NCBI GenBank assembly: GCA_023511915.1
Contig: JAIMAN010000028.1
Coordinates: 1 to 32,179, forward strand
Direction of reading: 5' to 3'
DNA: 32,179 bases
Source of the DNA: Armatimonadota bacterium
Lineage (GTDB): Bacteria > Armatimonadota > Fimbriimonadia > Fimbriimonadales > GBS-DC
In this document: piece after piece, positions 5,113 through 27,640 of the stretch
Layout of the letters: each line of letters begins with the position of its first letter
Numbering within the stretch: the first letter of the stretch is position 1
Translations under genes and position numbers: made by a program
Notes under the pieces: model-generated
What the model was told of the DNA's origin: nothing
What the model saw: only the letters and a program-made list of their open reading frames with translations
Database searches by the model: none

Positions 5113-6867
5113 ATGCGTCGCCTGTGTGGGTTCTGGATTGCCGTTAGTGTTGCCTGCGCCGCGTCGGGGCAGGTCGTCAGCGAGCGCGTCGGCGTCACGG
5201 CTGCGGGGAACAACCTCGCCGTGCGCCCTACCCCGTGCAGCACAAGCAGTCTGGGCGCACTTCCGTCGGGGATGGACGGCGCAGTGCTGGGCGCGGCGCA
5301 AGCGTGCAACAGCCTCACTTGGCTGCCCACGCGCTGGGCGAACGGCTTGCAGGGCTGGACGACGACGGGCGCGGGCGGAACGGACTACCTCGCGCCGCTG
5401 GCGGGACAGGGCGTCTTCCCGAATGTGTCTGCTCCGCTGGCGTACCCCGTGCGCGTCGGACCGAACGCCTCCGCGCTGAATGTGCGCACAGGGCCAGGTA
5501 CGGAGAACGCCATCGTCACCACGAAGTCTGCAGGCGCGACGGGCTGGGCATACGAGGTGTTCAACAACACCGCCGCGAACACCGTCTGGTGGAAAATCCG
5601 CTGGGATGACGGGGTGATCGGCTGGTCAGCGGAGGGCGTGCGCGAGGCGGGCGTCTACCTCTCGCTGGCGGGGCAGCCGCGCCCGAAGGCGACGCTGTAC
5701 CTGCAGACACTGGGCACATCAAGCGTGGAAGTGCAAGTTTCGCCCACAGACTTAAACACAGGCACGACGACCATCACCCTGCCTGCGACGCTGGTGTACC
5801 TATCGGGTGAGCGTGTGAGCCTCACTGCGCCCGAATTCGCCCCCAATGGCGCACGGTTTACCCGCTGGCTGGTGGACGGCGCGAGCCACCCACGCCGCAC
5901 GCTGACCCTCTATGCCGTGCAGGTCAGCCGCATCACGCTGATCTACAGCCCGAACACGCCCCAGACCGAAGAGCAGTTCCTGCGCAGCCTCGTCGCGCCG
6001 TGGCGACAAGGGCAGGTGTGGCTGCCCTCTACCTATGACACGCACGCAGGCAACAACCCCGAATACGCCGTGGATTTCAATCGCCTCTCCAGCGCGCGGG
6101 CGACTTGCCCCTACTACAACAGCTTCCTGCAGGACTGCAACGAGCCGATACTGGCGTCGCATGCGGGGCGCGTCTACATCCGCGCCCAAAGCGGCTGCAC
6201 GGGCTACGGCAACTACGCCATCGTGGTGAGCAATGTGCGCCCCACAGGTGGGGGCAGCAACACCTACTTGGCGACCATCTACGCACACCTCAACTACTTC
6301 CTCGCACCGAACGGGGCAACCGTAGAGGCGGGCGCGCCGATTGGACGACTCGGTAGCACGGGCAGCTCGACGGGACCACACCTGCACTACGAGATTCGCC
6401 ATGTCACGGTATCGGGCAGCACGCTGACGCTGGGCACGCGCGTGCAGGTGCTGAACAACCCGCGCATTCGCCTGAGCGGGCAGCTGCTGCAGGTCAACTT
6501 CAACTGCCCGATTTCGGGGTTGGGCTACGGCGGTCCCGCGATTACGGGAACCGCGCCGCTGGGTAATGTTCCGCCGAATATCGACCCGCCCTGCACGCCC
6601 TACAACTGCCCTGGCGGGCTGACCGACGGGCTGGACGGGCTGCCCGATTTCGCGCCCAGCCGCTGCGACGGCGAACTACCCGACACGCTGACGCTGTATC
6701 TGTCGGATGTGAACGGCGACGGCTGCGTCGACGACGCCGACCTGCTGCAGGTGCTGCTGCGCTTCGGCGAGACCTGCGACAGCGGCGAGGACATCACTTG
6801 GGACGGCATCGTGGACGACGCCGACCTGCTGACGCTGCTGATGGACTTCGGACGGGGCTGCGATTAG
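5113..6867 (+). CDS. Secreted SH3b-like + M23 (LytM) metallopeptidase with C-terminal dockerin-like EF-hand module
   Basis: Signal peptide; LNVRTGPGTENAIV (SH3b); HAGRVYIRAQSG, GSTGSSTGPHLHYEIR (M23 HxH motif); DVNGDGCVDDADLLQVLLRFG ... DGIVDDADLLTLLMDFGRGCD dockerin-like C-terminus. Confidence 0.9.
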   Translation: MRRLCGFWIAVSVACAASGQVVSERVGVTAAGNNLAVRPTPCSTSSLGALPSGMDGAVLGAAQACNSLTWLPTRWANGLQGWTTTGAGGTDYLAPLAGQGVFPNVSAPLAYPVRVGPNASALNVRTGPGTENAIVTTKSAGATGWAYEVFNNTAANTVWWKIRWDDGVIGWSAEGVREAGVYLSLAGQPRPKATLYLQTLGTSSVEVQVSPTDLNTGTTTITLPATLVYLSGERVSLTAPEFAPNGARFTRWLVDGASHPRRTLTLYAVQVSRITLIYSPNTPQTEEQFLRSLVAPWRQGQVWLPSTYDTHAGNNPEYAVDFNRLSSARATCPYYNSFLQDCNEPILASHAGRVYIRAQSGCTGYGNYAIVVSNVRPTGGGSNTYLATIYAHLNYFLAPNGATVEAGAPIGRLGSTGSSTGPHLHYEIRHVTVSGSTLTLGTRVQVLNNPRIRLSGQLLQVNFNCPISGLGYGGPAITGTAPLGNVPPNIDPPCTPYNCPGGLTDGLDGLPDFAPSRCDGELPDTLTLYLSDVNGDGCVDDADLLQVLLRFGETCDSGEDITWDGIVDDADLLTLLMDFGRGCD

Positions 6868-6876
6868 ATGGTACTA

Positions 6877-7050
6877 ATACTAACCGTGCAACCAAAGTCC
6901 GTAAACACAGGTGCAAATGGCGACCCCCTCCTCAAGGTTCCCCCTGCGGGCAGGGGGAACCGAGTGGGCGCGCGACTTGGTTCCCCTCGCGAAGCGGGGG
7001 GAACCTACGGAGGGGGGCAATTCGTGAACTCTGGACGCGCAGGTCGGTAT
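6877..7050. repeat. MITE-like element, copy A (174 bp) with terminal inverted repeats and two internal hairpins
   Basis: Left TIR ATACTAACCGTGCAACCAAAGTCCGTAAA matches the reverse complement of right end (ATACCGACCTGCGCGTCCAGAGTTCACGAA); core GACCCCCTCCTCAAGGTTCCCCCTGC...GCAGGGGGAACC...GGTTCCCCTCGCgaaGCGGGGGGAACC...GGAGGGGGGC; same length and layout as copy B. Confidence 0.85.
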
Positions 7051-7088
7051 TCGCAGGAATCGGCGAACTCTCGTAGAATTCTGGGCCT

Positions 7089-8387
7089 ATGCAACGGATG
7101 CGATTACTCGGATTAGCGCTGCTGGCGACGCTGCTATCGGCAGGTTGGGCGCAAAAACCGCTGGACGACTACTTCAAGCGACCCGAACCCGCCTACCGCT
7201 GGGAGAAGCGCGAGACCAAGCGCGTCGACGGCGTCACGATACACACGCTGTTTATGATTTCCCAGACATGGCAAGGGATTGAATGGGATCACTTTGTGCA
7301 GGTGTTTTACCCCGACCGCCCGCGCTTCCCGCGCTTTGCAGGACTCTACAACACAGGGGGTAGACCCGACGCTGAAGACGAAGCGTTCGGAACGCACATC
7401 GCCCGCGAATCGGGCGCGCCGTTCGTGATTCTGTACGGTATTCCCAAGCAGCCACTGTATAACAACCTATACGAAGATGCGCTTATCGTCTACACTTGGC
7501 AGAAGTTCATCGAGACGGGCGACACGACTTGGCCGCTGCACTTCCCGATGGCGAAGGCAGTGCTGAAGTGTATGGACGCCGTGCAAGCGTTCCTGAAAGC
7601 GGAGCGGCTGCCTGTGGTGGAGCGGTTCATGGTCACGGGCGCATCGAAGCGCGGGTGGACGGCATGGCTGGTGGGCGCGAGTCAAGACCCGCGCGTGGCG
7701 GGCATCGCGCCGATGGTTATCGATGTGCTGGATCTGCCCAAACAGGTGCCCCACCATCTGGAGTTCTACAAGGGCAAGCCGAGCGAGCAAATTGGCGACT
7801 ATGTGGCGGGCGGGATGCTGCAACTGCTGAACACCCCCATCGGGCAACGGCTGATAGAACTGGAAGACCCCTACAGCTATCGCGACCGCTACACGATGCC
7901 GAAGCTCATTATTAACGGCACGAACGACCGCTACTGGGCGCAGGACGCGCTGAACCTGTATTGGGACGGCTTGCCCGAGCCGAAGTGGATTCTGTACGCG
8001 CCCAACAGTGGGCACGGCTTGGACGACCGCACACGCGTGTTGGCGACGCTGGTCGCGTTCATCCAGACGCTGGCGCGTGGGCGGTCGCTGCCGAAGATGG
8101 CGTGGACGCTGAACGAGACCCCGCAAGGGCTGGAGATTCGCGTGCGCAGCCAGCCTGCGGCGCGCGAGGCGCGGATGTGGTTCGCCAGCACGCCCGACTA
8201 CGACCTGCGCGAGTCGCGCTGGGCAAGCGCGCCGATGACGCGCACGCGCGACGGCGGCTGGCAGGGCTTCCTGCAGCGACCCCGCCGCGGACGCGCGACC
8301 GCCTACGCCGAACTCGTGTTCGACATCGACGGGCGGCTGTTCACGCTGACCACACAACTGAAGGTGCTGGAAGCAAATCCGCAATAG
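7089..8387 (+). CDS. PhoPQ-activated pathogenicity-related (PqaA-like) alpha/beta hydrolase family protein
   Basis: ISQTWQGIEWDHFVQVFYPDRPRF ... ERFMVTGASKRGWTAWLVGASQDPRVAGIAPMVIDVLDLPKQVPHHLEFYKGKPSEQIGDYV ... KLIINGTNDRYWAQDALNLYWDGL. Confidence 0.88.
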   Translation: MQRMRLLGLALLATLLSAGWAQKPLDDYFKRPEPAYRWEKRETKRVDGVTIHTLFMISQTWQGIEWDHFVQVFYPDRPRFPRFAGLYNTGGRPDAEDEAFGTHIARESGAPFVILYGIPKQPLYNNLYEDALIVYTWQKFIETGDTTWPLHFPMAKAVLKCMDAVQAFLKAERLPVVERFMVTGASKRGWTAWLVGASQDPRVAGIAPMVIDVLDLPKQVPHHLEFYKGKPSEQIGDYVAGGMLQLLNTPIGQRLIELEDPYSYRDRYTMPKLIINGTNDRYWAQDALNLYWDGLPEPKWILYAPNSGHGLDDRTRVLATLVAFIQTLARGRSLPKMAWTLNETPQGLEIRVRSQPAAREARMWFASTPDYDLRESRWASAPMTRTRDGGWQGFLQRPRRGRATAYAELVFDIDGRLFTLTTQLKVLEANPQ

Positions 8388-8397
8388 GAGGCGAGCA

Positions 8398-9690
8398 ATG
8401 AAGCAACCGAATACACTGACACGGCGCGAGTTTCTGAAGGCGTCGGCGGGCGTCGCCGTCGGCGGCGCACTCGCCAGCCTGCCGATTGAACTCTTCGCGC
8501 ACGCGCAGGGATCGGACAAGCTGCGCGTCGGACTCATCGGCTGCGGCGGGCGCGGCACAGGCGCAGCCATCGACATCATCGTCGCGCACCCCAGCGTCGA
8601 ACTCTACGCACTGGGCGACGCCTTCAAAGACCGACTGGAAGGCTCGCTGAACGCACTACGCGAGGAGCTGAAAGACGAGCGCAAGGCGCAACTGAATGTC
8701 GGCGACCGCCTGTTCGTCGGACTGGACGCCTACAAGCAGGTGATTGCCAGCGGGGTGGATGTAGTGCTGCTCTGCACGCCGCCCGCGTTCCGACCTATCC
8801 ACTTCCGCGAGGCGATTCAAGCGGGCAAGCATGTGTTTATGGAGAAGCCTGTCGCAGTGTGCCCTGCAGGAGCGCGGCTGATGTTCCAGATGGGCGAGCT
8901 GGCGACCCAGAAGGGCTTGAGCGTCGTCGCGGGCACGCAACGCCGCCACGAGCCGAACTATATCGAAACCATCCGCCGCATCCGAGACGGCGCAATCGGC
9001 GAAATCGTCGGCGGCGCATGCTACTGGAACCAAGGCGGACTGTGGCATGTCGAGAAACGCCCCGACTGGAGCGATGTGGAGTGGCAGATGCGCAACTGGC
9101 TCTACTTCACTTGGCTCTCAGGCGACTTCATCGTCGAGCAGCACATCCACAACATCGATGTGATGAACTGGGTGCTGGGGGCGCATCCCGTGCGTGCGAT
9201 GGGCATGGGCGGACGCCAGTCGCGCACCGAGCCGCACTACGGGCACATCTACGACCACTTCGCCGTGGAGTTCGAGTACCCCAACGGCGTCAAGGTGCTG
9301 AGCATGTGCCGTCAGGTGGACAACTGCGCGATTCTGATTGGCGAGCGCGTGTACGGCGCCAAAGGCACGGCAGACCCGTCGGGGAGCATCACGGTCGGCG
9401 GCGAGACTTGGCGCTACGACGGACCCAAGCGCAGCGGCTACCGCAAGGAGCAGGAAGACCTCGTGCAAGCCATCCGCGAGGGCAAGCCGCTTAACGAGAC
9501 GCGCGCCGTCACAGAAGCGACGCTCGCAGCGATTATGGGGCGCATGTCCGCCTACACAGGCAAGGTGGTCACTTGGGACTTCGTGATGAACCAATCGCAG
9601 CTGAACCTGCTGGAGCGCGCCGAGAAGCTGGAGTTCGGACCGATGCCCATCGACGAGGTGGCAGTGCCTGGCAAGACGGCGTTAGTATAA
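8398..9690 (+). CDS. Gfo/Idh/MocA-family oxidoreductase with Tat-like signal
   Basis: TRREFLKASAGVAVGGALASLP; RVGLIGCGGRGTGAAIDII; GKHVFMEKPVAVCPAGARLM; SD GGAGG upstream of ATG. Confidence 0.93.
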   Translation: MKQPNTLTRREFLKASAGVAVGGALASLPIELFAHAQGSDKLRVGLIGCGGRGTGAAIDIIVAHPSVELYALGDAFKDRLEGSLNALREELKDERKAQLNVGDRLFVGLDAYKQVIASGVDVVLLCTPPAFRPIHFREAIQAGKHVFMEKPVAVCPAGARLMFQMGELATQKGLSVVAGTQRRHEPNYIETIRRIRDGAIGEIVGGACYWNQGGLWHVEKRPDWSDVEWQMRNWLYFTWLSGDFIVEQHIHNIDVMNWVLGAHPVRAMGMGGRQSRTEPHYGHIYDHFAVEFEYPNGVKVLSMCRQVDNCAILIGERVYGAKGTADPSGSITVGGETWRYDGPKRSGYRKEQEDLVQAIREGKPLNETRAVTEATLAAIMGRMSAYTGKVVTWDFVMNQSQLNLLERAEKLEFGPMPIDEVAVPGKTALV

Positions 9691-9863
9691 TACCAATCGC
9701 CGAGCCAGAGTTCATAAAAGCACGAATAAACGAGAACCCCCTCCTTAAGGTTTCCCCTGCTCGCAGGGGGAACCGAACGGGCGCGCGACTTGGTTCCCCT
9801 CGCGAAGCGGGGGGAACCTAAAGGAGGGGGGCAACTCATGAACTTTGGACGCGCGATTGGTAT
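9690..9863. repeat. MITE-like element, copy B (174 bp)
   Basis: Left ATACCAATCGCCGAGCCAGAGTTCAT versus reverse complement of right end ATACCAATCGCGCGTCCAAAGTTCATGAG; same core as copy A. Left edge coincides with the TAA stop (9688-9690); right part contains AAAGGAGGGGGGCAACTCATG. Confidence 0.88.
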
Positions 9864-10983
9864 AAGGGTATCCTTACATCCAGTGTGGCTCATCATCTAC
9901 GGCGTGCTGGCGGTGCAAATCGGCATCCTGCTGTATAACCTTGCCTATTGGCGCAGGCGTCGGCTGCGGGCAGCTGCATCGGTGAGTGCGCCGACGCTTT
10001 CGGTGCTGATCCCTGCGCGGAACGAGGTGGAGAACTTGCCCGCGCTGCTGGAAAGCCTTGCGCCGCAGCTGGGCGCGGGGGTGGAGTGTTGGGTGTGCGA
10101 CGACGGCTCCGACGACGGCACGACCGAGTGGCTGGCGCAGCACGCCGAGCCGCTGGTCGTGCGCTGGTTTCGGAGCGAGCCGCGTCCCGACGGCTGGGTC
10201 GGCAAGAACTGGGCGTGCCATCAGCTGGCGGTACGGGCGCAGGGCGACTGGCTGCTGTTTCTGGACGCCGACCTGCGCTGTGAGGCGGGTTTCCTGGACG
10301 CGCTACGGGCATACCTGCAGACGACTGACGCGCACTTGGTGAGTGCCATCCCCGCGTTCGCGCCCGCGAGCCTGCCCGTCGCGCTGCTGAAACTGATGGT
10401 GCCCTTCTCGGTGTTCACGCTGCTGCCGTTGCCGCTGGCAGAGCGGCATCCGAACCCCGCGTTCGCCTTCGCGAATGGGCAGGTCATCGCCTTCCGCAGG
10501 GACGACTACTTGCGATGGCAGCCCCATCAGACAGTGCGTGGTGCAGTGCTGGAGGATGTCGCGCTCGCCGCGCTGGTGAAGCGGCAGCGCGGGACGGTGC
10601 ATTTGCTGGACGCGCGGGCGTGGCTGCGCGTGTCGATGTACCCGACGCTACGGGCGGCGATGGACGGCTTCGCCAAAAACGCCGTCGCCATCTGCCGCAC
10701 GGCGCTGGTGGCGGTGCTGGTCGGCGTTATGCTTACGCTGGTCTATCTGTACCCGCTGGGCGCGGCGATTGCACTGGGGCAGTACGCGCAAGCATCGGGG
10801 GCGATTGCGGGCGCGGTGCTGGTGTTCGGGCTGTCGGCGCGGGTGGTCGGCATGCCGCTTGCGATGGGGTTGGGCTATGCGGGCAGCGTGTTGATTGGGC
10901 TGCTGACGCTCGCGCGTTCGATCGTGTGGTATCGGCGAGGTTGGGTGCGATGGAAGGGACGGGTCTATCAGGCGCGCTCGTGA
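9838..10983 (+). CDS. Membrane glycosyltransferase family 2 (CrtQ-like?)
   Basis: TLSVLIPARNEVENLPALLESLAPQLGAGVECWVCDDGSDDGTTEWL; LLFLDADLRCE; C-terminal TM helices. ATG 9838 (inside repeat copy B) or GTG 9883 preferred over the 9790 TTG of the ORF track. Confidence 0.85.
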   Translation: MNFGRAIGIRVSLHPVWLIIYGVLAVQIGILLYNLAYWRRRRLRAAASVSAPTLSVLIPARNEVENLPALLESLAPQLGAGVECWVCDDGSDDGTTEWLAQHAEPLVVRWFRSEPRPDGWVGKNWACHQLAVRAQGDWLLFLDADLRCEAGFLDALRAYLQTTDAHLVSAIPAFAPASLPVALLKLMVPFSVFTLLPLPLAERHPNPAFAFANGQVIAFRRDDYLRWQPHQTVRGAVLEDVALAALVKRQRGTVHLLDARAWLRVSMYPTLRAAMDGFAKNAVAICRTALVAVLVGVMLTLVYLYPLGAAIALGQYAQASGAIAGAVLVFGLSARVVGMPLAMGLGYAGSVLIGLLTLARSIVWYRRGWVRWKGRVYQARS

Positions 10984-11680: not shown

Positions 11681-12607
11681 ATGCGTTCGCTGATGGCGCG
11701 CCGCGGGGAGGAACCGACGCTGGAGCAGGACTACGCGCACTGCCAAGCGGTGCAGCGGGCGCATGGCGTCAGCTACTACTTCGCGACGCGGTTTTTCCCG
11801 CCCGAAACGCGCCGCGCCGTACACGCGCTCTACGGCTTCGTGCGCTACCCCGACCAGTGGGTGGACTGCCCCGACGCGCACAGCTCGCCCGAGAGCATCC
11901 GCACGCAACTGGACGCCTACGAGCGCGACCTGATTCGCGCCGTGTGCGGCGAGCCTGTGTCGCTGCCGCCGCTGCGGGCGTTCGCCGATGTCGTGCGCCG
12001 CTACCACATCCCCCTGCGCTACCCGCTGGAGTTTCTGGACGCGATGCGGATGGACTTGACGCGCACGCGCTACGCGACTTTCGACGAGTTGCAGACCTAC
12101 ACTTGGGGCAGCGCGTCGGTGGTGGGTGTGATGATGTGCTACATTCTCGGCGCAGTGCAGCCCGACGCGCTGCACTACGCGGCGACGATGGGGCTGGCGA
12201 TGCAGATGACAAACTTCCTGCGCGATGTGGGCGAGGACTGGGCGCGCGGGCGCGTCTACCTACCGCAGGACGAGTTGCAACGGTTCGGCGTCTCGGAAGC
12301 GCAAATCGCCAACGGCGTCGTAGACGACCGCTGGGTCGCGCTGATGCGCTTCCAGATTGACCGTTGCCGCGCGCTGTACGCCGAAGCCGAGCAAGGCATC
12401 CCGCTGCTGCCGCGCGAGGCGCAGTACCCCGTGCTGCTGGGCGGACGGCTCTACGCGCGGATCTTGAACGCGATTGAGCGCAACGACTACGATGTATTCC
12501 GTCAGCGCGCCCGCACCACGCATGCCGAGAAGCTCGCGCTGGCGGCGGCGACCTACTACGAGTGGCGCTACAGCATCACCACGAACCGCTCCGCCTCGCG
12601 CATGTAG
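11681..12607 (+). CDS. Squalene/phytoene synthase family protein
   Basis: HGVSYYFATRFFPPETRRAVHALYGFVRYPDQWVD (DxxxD), GLAMQMTNFLRDVGEDWARGRVYLPQDEL (DxxxD). Confidence 0.95.
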   Translation: MRSLMARRGEEPTLEQDYAHCQAVQRAHGVSYYFATRFFPPETRRAVHALYGFVRYPDQWVDCPDAHSSPESIRTQLDAYERDLIRAVCGEPVSLPPLRAFADVVRRYHIPLRYPLEFLDAMRMDLTRTRYATFDELQTYTWGSASVVGVMMCYILGAVQPDALHYAATMGLAMQMTNFLRDVGEDWARGRVYLPQDELQRFGVSEAQIANGVVDDRWVALMRFQIDRCRALYAEAEQGIPLLPREAQYPVLLGGRLYARILNAIERNDYDVFRQRARTTHAEKLALAAATYYEWRYSITTNRSASRM

Positions 12608-14043
12608 GTGTTGAACGGGTCGCGCATGTCTACCTGGCGATTGCGGTCGACATACACAATATCCCAGTCGATGTAGTAGCGATTGTAGCGGCGTTCCGCG
12701 AGACGCTTGATGACAAACCCGCGGGCGCAGGCGCGTGTGTCGGCGGGCGGGGTGGTGATGCCTGCGTCAATCTGCACATCGTCCACCACGCGCTTCACCT
12801 CACCCATCTGTTGCAGTGCGTAATACAGCCCCTGCTCTGGGTTGATGTTATGGTACTCCAGGTCGAGCGAGTGCAGCGCGTCGTCGCCCCACTGCGCGCC
12901 CGTCTCCGCCATATACTCGCGCAGGATGCGCAGCTTGATTAGCCAGTCGAGGCGGTCTTCCAGTTTTTCGGGGTCGGTCTCTAAGGTGTCCAGCACATAC
13001 TCCCACTCCTGCAGCACCCAGTCGGTTTCGGGGTCGCGCCCTGCGAAGCGTTTCTGGGCGAGTTGCAGGTAGGCGCGCTGGAGGTCGATTGCCGACATGG
13101 TGCTGCCGTCCAGCAGCGTGACAATCCACTTGCGGGTCGGGTCGCGCGAGATGCTCTTGAGGGTGTGCAGGGCGTCTTGCAAGCGCAGCCAGTTCGGTAG
13201 CGCGCGCGCCTCCGCGAGGTCTAACACGAGGCAGGTCGTACCGATTTTCAGCGCGGCGGCGTACTCGCTCATGTTGCCCTCGCCGAACAGCAGGTGCAGC
13301 CGCTGGTAGTTCTGGTAGCCGTACACGCTGTCCCACTTCGGGTTGATAATCGCACGGTTGAAGCGCACGCGCGAGGCGTTCTCGCGCACGATGTGGTCGG
13401 CGCGCTGCGACAACTGGTACTGCACCGTCGGGTCAGGCTCCACATTGTAGACATTCGAGACCCAGATGAAGTCAATCGGGTGGTCGGCGACTTCGGAGAG
13501 GGAGGGTCGGAAGCCTGCGTGCTCGAGTCTGTGCCCGCCGACGCGCCCCGCGCCCGCGAAAATCTGCCGCGTGGTCAGAAACGGCAGGATCAGCTTGTGC
13601 CAGTCGCTGGGGAGCCGCTCGTCCGTGCGCACAAGGTAGTTCTCGTGGCAGCCGAAGGTGTGCCCCGCGAAGTGGTCGATGTTGTTGTTGTGGAAACTCA
13701 CACGCTCGTCCCAGTTCATCTGCTTGAGTGTATTGTAGACGATGCGCTGCCCTGCTTTCTCGTGAGCGACAATATCGAACAGGCTGGCGCATTCGGGCGT
13801 GGCGTACTCCAAGTGGCTGCCGACGGCGTCGATATATAGTCGCCCGCCGTTGATGAGAAAGCCCCCACTGCGGGCAGGCTCGAACGCCTCGTCGCGGGCA
13901 GTTAGGTCGATTAGCCCCAGCCGCGCCTTGTGGAACACATAGTTCTTGACCGCTTCCACCACAGTTTCGGAAGTGCCCACGCGCTCGTCCCGCACGAAGC
14001 ACCCGAACTCGGTCTCGATGCCAAACACGCGACGCCCGATCAT
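12568..14043 (-). CDS. pafA: Pup/UBact-type ligase of the PafA/Dop family (PafA more likely)
   Basis: MIGRRVFGIETEFGCF; GGRLYIDAVGSHLEYATPECASLFDIVAHEKAG; FHNNNIDHFAGHTFGCHENYLVRTDERL (GCHENYLV resembles PafA rather than Dop); GSTMSAIDLQRAYL. Confidence 0.88.
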   Translation of the reverse strand: MIGRRVFGIETEFGCFVRDERVGTSETVVEAVKNYVFHKARLGLIDLTARDEAFEPARSGGFLINGGRLYIDAVGSHLEYATPECASLFDIVAHEKAGQRIVYNTLKQMNWDERVSFHNNNIDHFAGHTFGCHENYLVRTDERLPSDWHKLILPFLTTRQIFAGAGRVGGHRLEHAGFRPSLSEVADHPIDFIWVSNVYNVEPDPTVQYQLSQRADHIVRENASRVRFNRAIINPKWDSVYGYQNYQRLHLLFGEGNMSEYAAALKIGTTCLVLDLAEARALPNWLRLQDALHTLKSISRDPTRKWIVTLLDGSTMSAIDLQRAYLQLAQKRFAGRDPETDWVLQEWEYVLDTLETDPEKLEDRLDWLIKLRILREYMAETGAQWGDDALHSLDLEYHNINPEQGLYYALQQMGEVKRVVDDVQIDAGITTPPADTRACARGFVIKRLAERRYNRYYIDWDIVYVDRNRQVDMRDPFNTYMREAERFVVML

Positions 14044-27467: not shown

Positions 27468-27640
27468 TATGGAGTGCTGAAGCGCAGCTTCAGCGTCAAG
27501 CGGAAGCGCCCGCCGACACGCCATATGGAGTGCTGAAGCGCAGCTTCAGCGTCAGGCGGAAGCGCCCGCCGACACGCCATATGGAGTGCTGAAGCACAGC
27601 TTCAGCGTCAGGCGGAAGCTGGCGCTTCCGCACTCCATAG
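27468..27640. repeat. R54-family array: three units, 56-bp period; last unit is a complete two-hairpin element
   Basis: Units start at 27471, 27527, 27583 (GGAGTGCTGAAGC[g/a]cAGCTTCAGCGTCA[a/g]GCGGAAGC...); third ends ...GCGGAAGCtggcGCTTCCGCACTCC; flanked TAT/ATA. Confidence 0.9.

Follow-up and report, generated by a model that had tools for sequence, protein, structure and literature searches.

The two short elements in the 32,179-nt stretch of Armatimonadota DNA analysed here (the window) are likely built of two separable layers, a transposable outer shell and a passenger hairpin core, a separability of core and ends that the original prediction had missed. The elements look modular, with the same ends carrying differing cassettes and the same hairpin occurring in differing ends, and they are real, transposed, non-coding mobile elements in a little-studied bacterium of the Armatimonadota. 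The window is contig C13 of the host genome (G000), a MAG of 2.73 Mb in 122 contigs, and all genomes compared were MAGs.

Structure, Dispersal and Transposition of the Window Elements

Two 174-nt MITE-like stretches had been predicted in the window. Both copies are present, but the element ends TACY...GGTA, read from the flanks, delimit a unit of 172 bp; the bases at the very edges of the predicted spans are part of the target duplication, and 9690–9863, as predicted for copy 2, takes in a single base of each TAA. The features are as follows.

6878–7049, no strand assigned: MITE copy 1, 172 bp, ends TACTAACC / GGTCGGTA; the older copy, with flanks TAA and TTC, their match lost
6924–7017, no strand assigned: core of copy 1, with CCCCCTCC head, hairpin 1 (6936–6961), linker, hairpin 2 (6979–7005) and GGAGGGGG tail
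9688–9690, plus strand: left target duplication TAA, which is the stop codon of the GFO/IDH/MocA gene at 8398–9690
9691–9862, no strand assigned: MITE copy 2, 172 bp, TIRs TACCAATCGCC.. / ..CGCGATTGGTA
9737–9830, no strand assigned: core of copy 2, with hairpin 1 (9749–9774) and hairpin 2 (9792–9818)
9863–9865, plus strand: right target duplication TAA

The copies form a 143-nt direct repeat with 80% identity and a start-to-start distance of 2813. The outer CCCCCTCC/GGAGGGGG stem and the two GGTTCCCC..GGGGAACC hairpins described earlier were found in both; hairpin 2 (GGTTCCCCTCGCGAAGCGGGGGGAACC) is identical in the two copies, and hairpin 1 of copy 2 differs from that of copy 1 by one T change. 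Terminal inverted repeats, claimed for both, were recovered in copy 2 with arms of 26 nt (81% complementary) and less well in copy 1, whose arms are more worn. Folding of the window copies is far above chance: copy 1 reached -95.9 kcal/mol (z = -6.7) and copy 2 -108.9 kcal/mol (z = -13.2; z = -9.6 when folded as DNA), with 0 of 200 shuffles as stable in either case. The elements are free of transposase, as had been noted, and a scan of the 23 main proteins of the window found none either; no family-matched protein lies inside the 172-bp element, and Rfam at gathering score left the element unmatched, a tRNA being its only match in the window.

Several neighbouring genes were also recorded. The product of 5113–6867 has a C-terminus with dockerin-like DADLL..LFNFG repeats, as in L027, L051 and L092; such repeats lie at the C-terminal end of secreted proteins, gave dozens of cross-hits across the family genomes, and belong to genes directly behind which several elements lie. 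A Pup ligase gene at 12568–14043 (minus strand) makes a pupylation system likely in this Armatimonadota lineage, and an Imm11-like immunity protein domain is encoded near the contig end (31228–32175, minus strand).

The claim of a dispersed family was borne out: the 27-nt core (hairpin 2) gave at least 78 matches in the host genome when up to 3 mismatches were allowed, 47 of them exact, so that the prediction's own counter-case, a genome without further copies, fails, and the reversed core gave 0 matches in the genome. Core copies are in excess near contig ends (11 observed versus 2.3 expected; binomial p about 2e-5), and the 78 matches are therefore a lower bound; such copies also account for part of the fragmentation of the MAG. 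Of 113 genomes of the class, 10 contain the core pattern, every one belonging to the host's own family, and the core is also present in a sister MAG labelled Armatimonadota. Phages and plasmids gave no match to the core, and viral contigs gave 0 matches to the exact core pattern; 31 exact 15-mer TIR matches in viral contigs were taken as chance.

The proposed search for empty sites was successful for copy 2. A 5.6-kb query spanning both copies could be located in each of the 18 family genomes, and copy 2 is missing, leaving clean sites, from seven congeners (G010, G009, G004, G006, G012, G003 and G008), where ~17–30 bp, free of any element, separate the upstream stop codon from the downstream gene. 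The junction in the window reads GTATAA-[TACC..GGTA]-TAAGGGTATCC; copy 2 was therefore inserted into the TAA stop of the GFO/IDH/MocA gene, whose stop codon was retained through the target duplication. A stop-codon target of this kind allows entry into a tight gene junction with the upstream protein not lengthened. Copy 1 is missing from the sole orthologous spacer that was readable (G010), which holds a different hairpin. That the two copies are ends of one segmental duplication within the window, as the similarity of two 174-bp units at a spacing of 2.8 kb might suggest and as the prediction itself had warned, has practically no probability, since the flanking genes are unrelated (peptidase M23, PhoPQ-related, GFO/IDH and glycosyltransferase), the similarity ends at the element ends, and the sites are empty in relatives.

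A target duplication of 3 bp (TTA/TAA) was supported statistically. Among 49 paired elements from G000, G010, G012 and others, 42 carry TTA or TAA at both flanks, and in 32 of these 42 the two triplets agree, a count equalled or exceeded in 12 of 10,000 shuffles (mean, 21). In a second, smaller set, picked blind to the flanks, only a length of 3 among duplication lengths of 1–6 beat the shuffles, with a match in 21 of 36 elements (shuffle mean, 12.5; 3 of 5,000 shuffles as high). Copy 2 has thus transposed with target duplication, and its family has a high copy number. TIRs, a fixed-length duplication, dispersed copies with empty sites and freedom from transposase are the features of MITEs, and the reading as a non-autonomous, structured, dispersed family is supported.

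The hairpin stems appear to be conserved. Across 20 distinct hairpin-1 variants of the family, 98.3% of pairs are preserved, and conservation was destroyed when the pairing was shifted by sliding; seven cells have both sides changed (shuffle mean, 1.3; 0 of 500 shuffles), a count of compensatory changes that related sequences inflate. These data support, and do not prove, a constraint on the stem, which could come from the needs of the mobiliser or from the mechanics of palindrome copying. Such strong compensatory conservation, together with the position of both window copies between codirectional genes directly after a stop codon, might also be expected of a selected host element (a terminator, an mRNA 3' stabiliser or a site for a nucleoid protein) that MITEs disperse only incidentally. 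We regard a host element as very improbable, however, because neither window element has a T-tract terminator, orthologous sites in relatives lack the element, and the pattern is missing from 8 of the 18 family members.

Shells and Hairpin Cassettes as Separable Layers

Cassettes and shells are separable, and nested insertions occur. The shell, a TIR beginning TACCAATCG.. with 3-bp TTA/TAA target duplications, is found genus-wide. Among 82 core copies, with the maximum of 400 null windows as the threshold for a TIR arm, 17 have both arms, 22 have one arm and 38 have neither, the others reaching contig ends. The core occurs in tandem arrays (~100 bp) in G001, and three core-only loci on contig C93 have empty orthologous sites in relatives, in spacers too diverged for exact insertion borders.

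The shell is likewise found around other interiors. The TIR pattern CGCGRTTGGTATWA gave 88 matches in G012, 28 in G010 and 41 in G000 (reversed-pattern control, 2–3), and the core head pattern gave 0 matches in G012. The many TIRs without a core head in G012 are explained by other cassettes, since shells of 123, 155 and 172 bp there hold cassettes A, C and B. Because the G012 and G010 samples were partial (ends with at most 1 mismatch, regions hand-picked), the following counts are not frequencies: cassette A (GTAGCGTCGGCGTC hairpins) occupies 12 shells in G012; cassette C (CCCTCACCCC..GGGTGAGGG) occupies 11 in G012, plus one nested C+A, and 3 in G010; cassette B (ACGGCTGAAGCCGT with GCCCGCGCAGGCGGGC) occupies 9 in G012; and cassette D (GGAGTGCGGAAGC) occupies 2 in G010. 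Thus, at least four cassettes besides the core are carried by the same shell in sister species, with 37 such elements read in G012 and G010. The core itself lies inside the TACCAATCG shell once in G010 and seven times in G000 (strict set), and the number of core hairpins in G000 shells varies from one (L224, 146 bp with TSDs) through two to three (L107, 209 bp). Every shell among the sampled elements held a cassette. Cassette D also occurs alone in the window, at two places.

2156–2211, no strand assigned: a lone cassette D (GGAGTGCGGAAGC..GCTTCAGCACTCC), a hairpin that in G010 lies inside the TACCAATCG shell
27470–27637, no strand assigned: tandemly arrayed cassette D units, also solo

Conversely, the core seems, from its flanking sequences, to sit inside at least two other shells, in few copies. 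In the MAG JAUQOS, possibly identical or close to one of the G-numbered genomes, the core (identical 27-mer) lies between TGCTTCATCAAGG.. and ..TTGACGAAGCA, and these elements are flanked by CTCAT/CTCAT and TTAG/TTAG. A second shell, with CTGATAAGGGTACA-type ends, surrounds the core in JAUQOS and G012, the loose scan for it being too permissive for a genome-wide copy count; at L419 in G012 this second shell, with its core, is inserted in cassette C of the TACCAATCG shell with an 8–9 bp duplication, GAGTCGGA, read by eye. Core copies of G003, G008 and G011 have a further flank in common, GTAGGTGCAGGTA.. / ..TTCCCCATACAACAGGCG (read in G003 and G011). Insertions of a repeat or IS into another are frequent, further cases being shell 3 within shell 1 (C15), shell 1 within shell 1 (L303), the CCTACCCCTTTAAG repeat within shell 1 (L109 and L119), an IS4-like element inserted in a MITE (L128) and an InsA-like element (L338). 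The CCTACCCCTTTAAG repeats constitute a family of their own (L109, L119, L323 and L020), with ends CCTACCCCTTTAAG / CTTAAAGGGGTAGG and body GCGGGCGTGCCTGCTCGCGGCG, often inserted beside TTAAGG of the core.

A simpler account would be one ordinary MITE family, in which the hairpins would be what decay has left of the interior of one ancestral IS and the solo cores would be old copies with worn ends. The one-arm intermediates (22 of the 82 cores, and further ones at contig ends) and ends visibly worn by eye, for example at L055, agree with this account, and part of the solo cores may indeed be old MITEs with decayed ends. It is nonetheless disfavoured, and we consider it quite unlikely, in view of solo cores with intact hairpins whose ends are wholly missing, the core-only tandem arrays in G001, the same core within unrelated ends, and the same ends around four unrelated interiors. 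For the two-layer reading, we favour a change of shells by nested insertion followed by loss as an unproven route. We also raise, tentatively and as less probable than its opposite, that the hairpin cassettes form a separate class of element, in which palindromes independent of RAYT hop between, and are amplified by, unrelated MITE shells, several transposases (with duplications of 3 bp, ~4–5 bp and ~8–9 bp) spreading one hairpin family.

Proposed Mechanism and Candidate Mobilisers

In the mechanism proposed here, the TIR shell (TACCAATCG.., ~25–45 nt per side) would be the transposable part, which a DDE transposase acting in trans would insert at TTA/TAA by cut-and-paste, duplicating 3 bp. 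A 3-bp TWA-type target duplication, as for IS5/PIF-type derived elements, is present, and the TWA target suggests that the mobilising enzyme is most likely IS5/PIF-like, a 3-bp TWA/TNA duplication being typical of such transposases. The core of ~94 bp, with its CCCCCTCC head and two GGTTCCCC hairpins, would be a REP-like passenger with its own dispersal history. Shells would gain, lose or swap cassettes, probably as hairpin elements nest into each other's palindromic middle and deletion follows, and shell and cassette would then amplify as one unit. No strong host role would be expected, save possible hairpin effects at the gene 3' end.

The predicted autonomous partner, an IS or RAYT element sharing these ends, was not found at the loci searched. 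No TACCAATCG end pair was present at the DDE_Tnp_1 genes of G000, G010, G012, G009, G007, G004 and G006, and a candidate mobiliser is therefore unproven. An IS4-like transposase at C84 (L128, 2481–3635; NF033591 below cut-off), flanked by GGGTACTTTTTT / AAAAAAGTACCC, was rejected as the parent, since its own ends are GGGTACTTTTTT, not TACCAATCG, and it is inserted into a MITE; the CTGATAAGGGTACA shell may possibly derive from it. No TACCAATCG ends were visible at the IS5-like fragments that lie terminally on contigs C30 and C88, and a transposase-looking fragment at a lone TIR on C101 (L337) was discarded as a candidate, being unmatched in Pfam, NCBIfam, PDB and plasmid searches.

The core might instead be a true REPIN/BIME, spread and put into MITEs by the Y1 (IS200-like, RAYT) protein of the family. 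The inverted hairpin dimers, solo and clustered, are REP-like, a head sequence stands at each hairpin, arrays occur, and one or more strong Y1_Tnp genes are present in each of the 18 family genomes. However, no core lies within ~1.5 kb of either Y1_Tnp gene in G000 or of the genes examined in 17 relatives, and the gene is equally present in core-free family members. The Y1 product, in which a sigma-70 region 4 domain is also present, passed the IS200 cut-off but not the REP-associated one, placing it nearer IS200. In addition, the known REP superfamilies are defined by a GTAG or CGTC tag next to the hairpin (PMC3733652) and by a neighbouring RAYT; the core, whose head is CCCCCTCC, lacks the tag and, at the Y1 genes examined, the neighbour. 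RAYT mobilisation of the core is thus not supported, though action in trans keeps a low probability, and a REPIN/BIME origin is unlikely. The fusion of an IS200-like Y1 HUH protein to a sigma-70 region 4-like domain was read at L127, 3553–4281 (G000:C111:22861 region); it has one strong homologue in each of the 18 family genomes, with a helicase-gene neighbourhood common to several loci, and looks domesticated.

Relation to Known Repeat Systems

The nearest precedent is that of GTAG-15 in Anabaena variabilis and CGTC-1 in Halothiobacillus neapolitanus, REP dimers inside long palindromes of which no empty ones were found (PMC3733652); the reason for such nesting of hairpin repeats in longer palindromes has been no more than an aside in the literature. 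CGTC-type REPs have no known mobiliser. As here, hairpin dimers lie regularly within a longer palindrome, whereas those families bear GTAG/CGTC tags and were described with one palindrome per REP family versus several cassettes per shell in the present elements, for which target duplication and empty sites were shown. The new point is this modularity of shell and cassette; the literature searched, with partial coverage, contained no account of a shell that carries more than one kind of cassette. One genus offers a shell with varied hairpins, a hairpin in varied shells, and empty sites; passenger and vehicle are therefore separable, and the question is testable.

RAYT-mobilised REPIN/BIMEs resemble the core in their inverted hairpin pairs, arrays, extragenic location and species-specific stem variants, but the core has no GTAG tag or adjacent RAYT and rides in putative DDE-type shells. 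Prokaryotic MITEs have been reviewed, including QMITE2 of Coxiella (PMC10969869). Like the present elements, they are short, non-coding, TIR-bounded, intergenic, foldback and of high copy number, and TIR-less copies of QMITE2 were noted as resembling REPs; in contrast, the interior here is interchangeable among unrelated cassettes, common to other shells, and a parent IS was not found at the DDE_Tnp_1 loci of seven genomes. The BrickBuilt MITE of Porphyromonas gingivalis (PMC4596501) likewise holds a repeat array within a MITE, but that array is a minisatellite, whereas the hairpin cassette here is found outside the MITE as well as within it.
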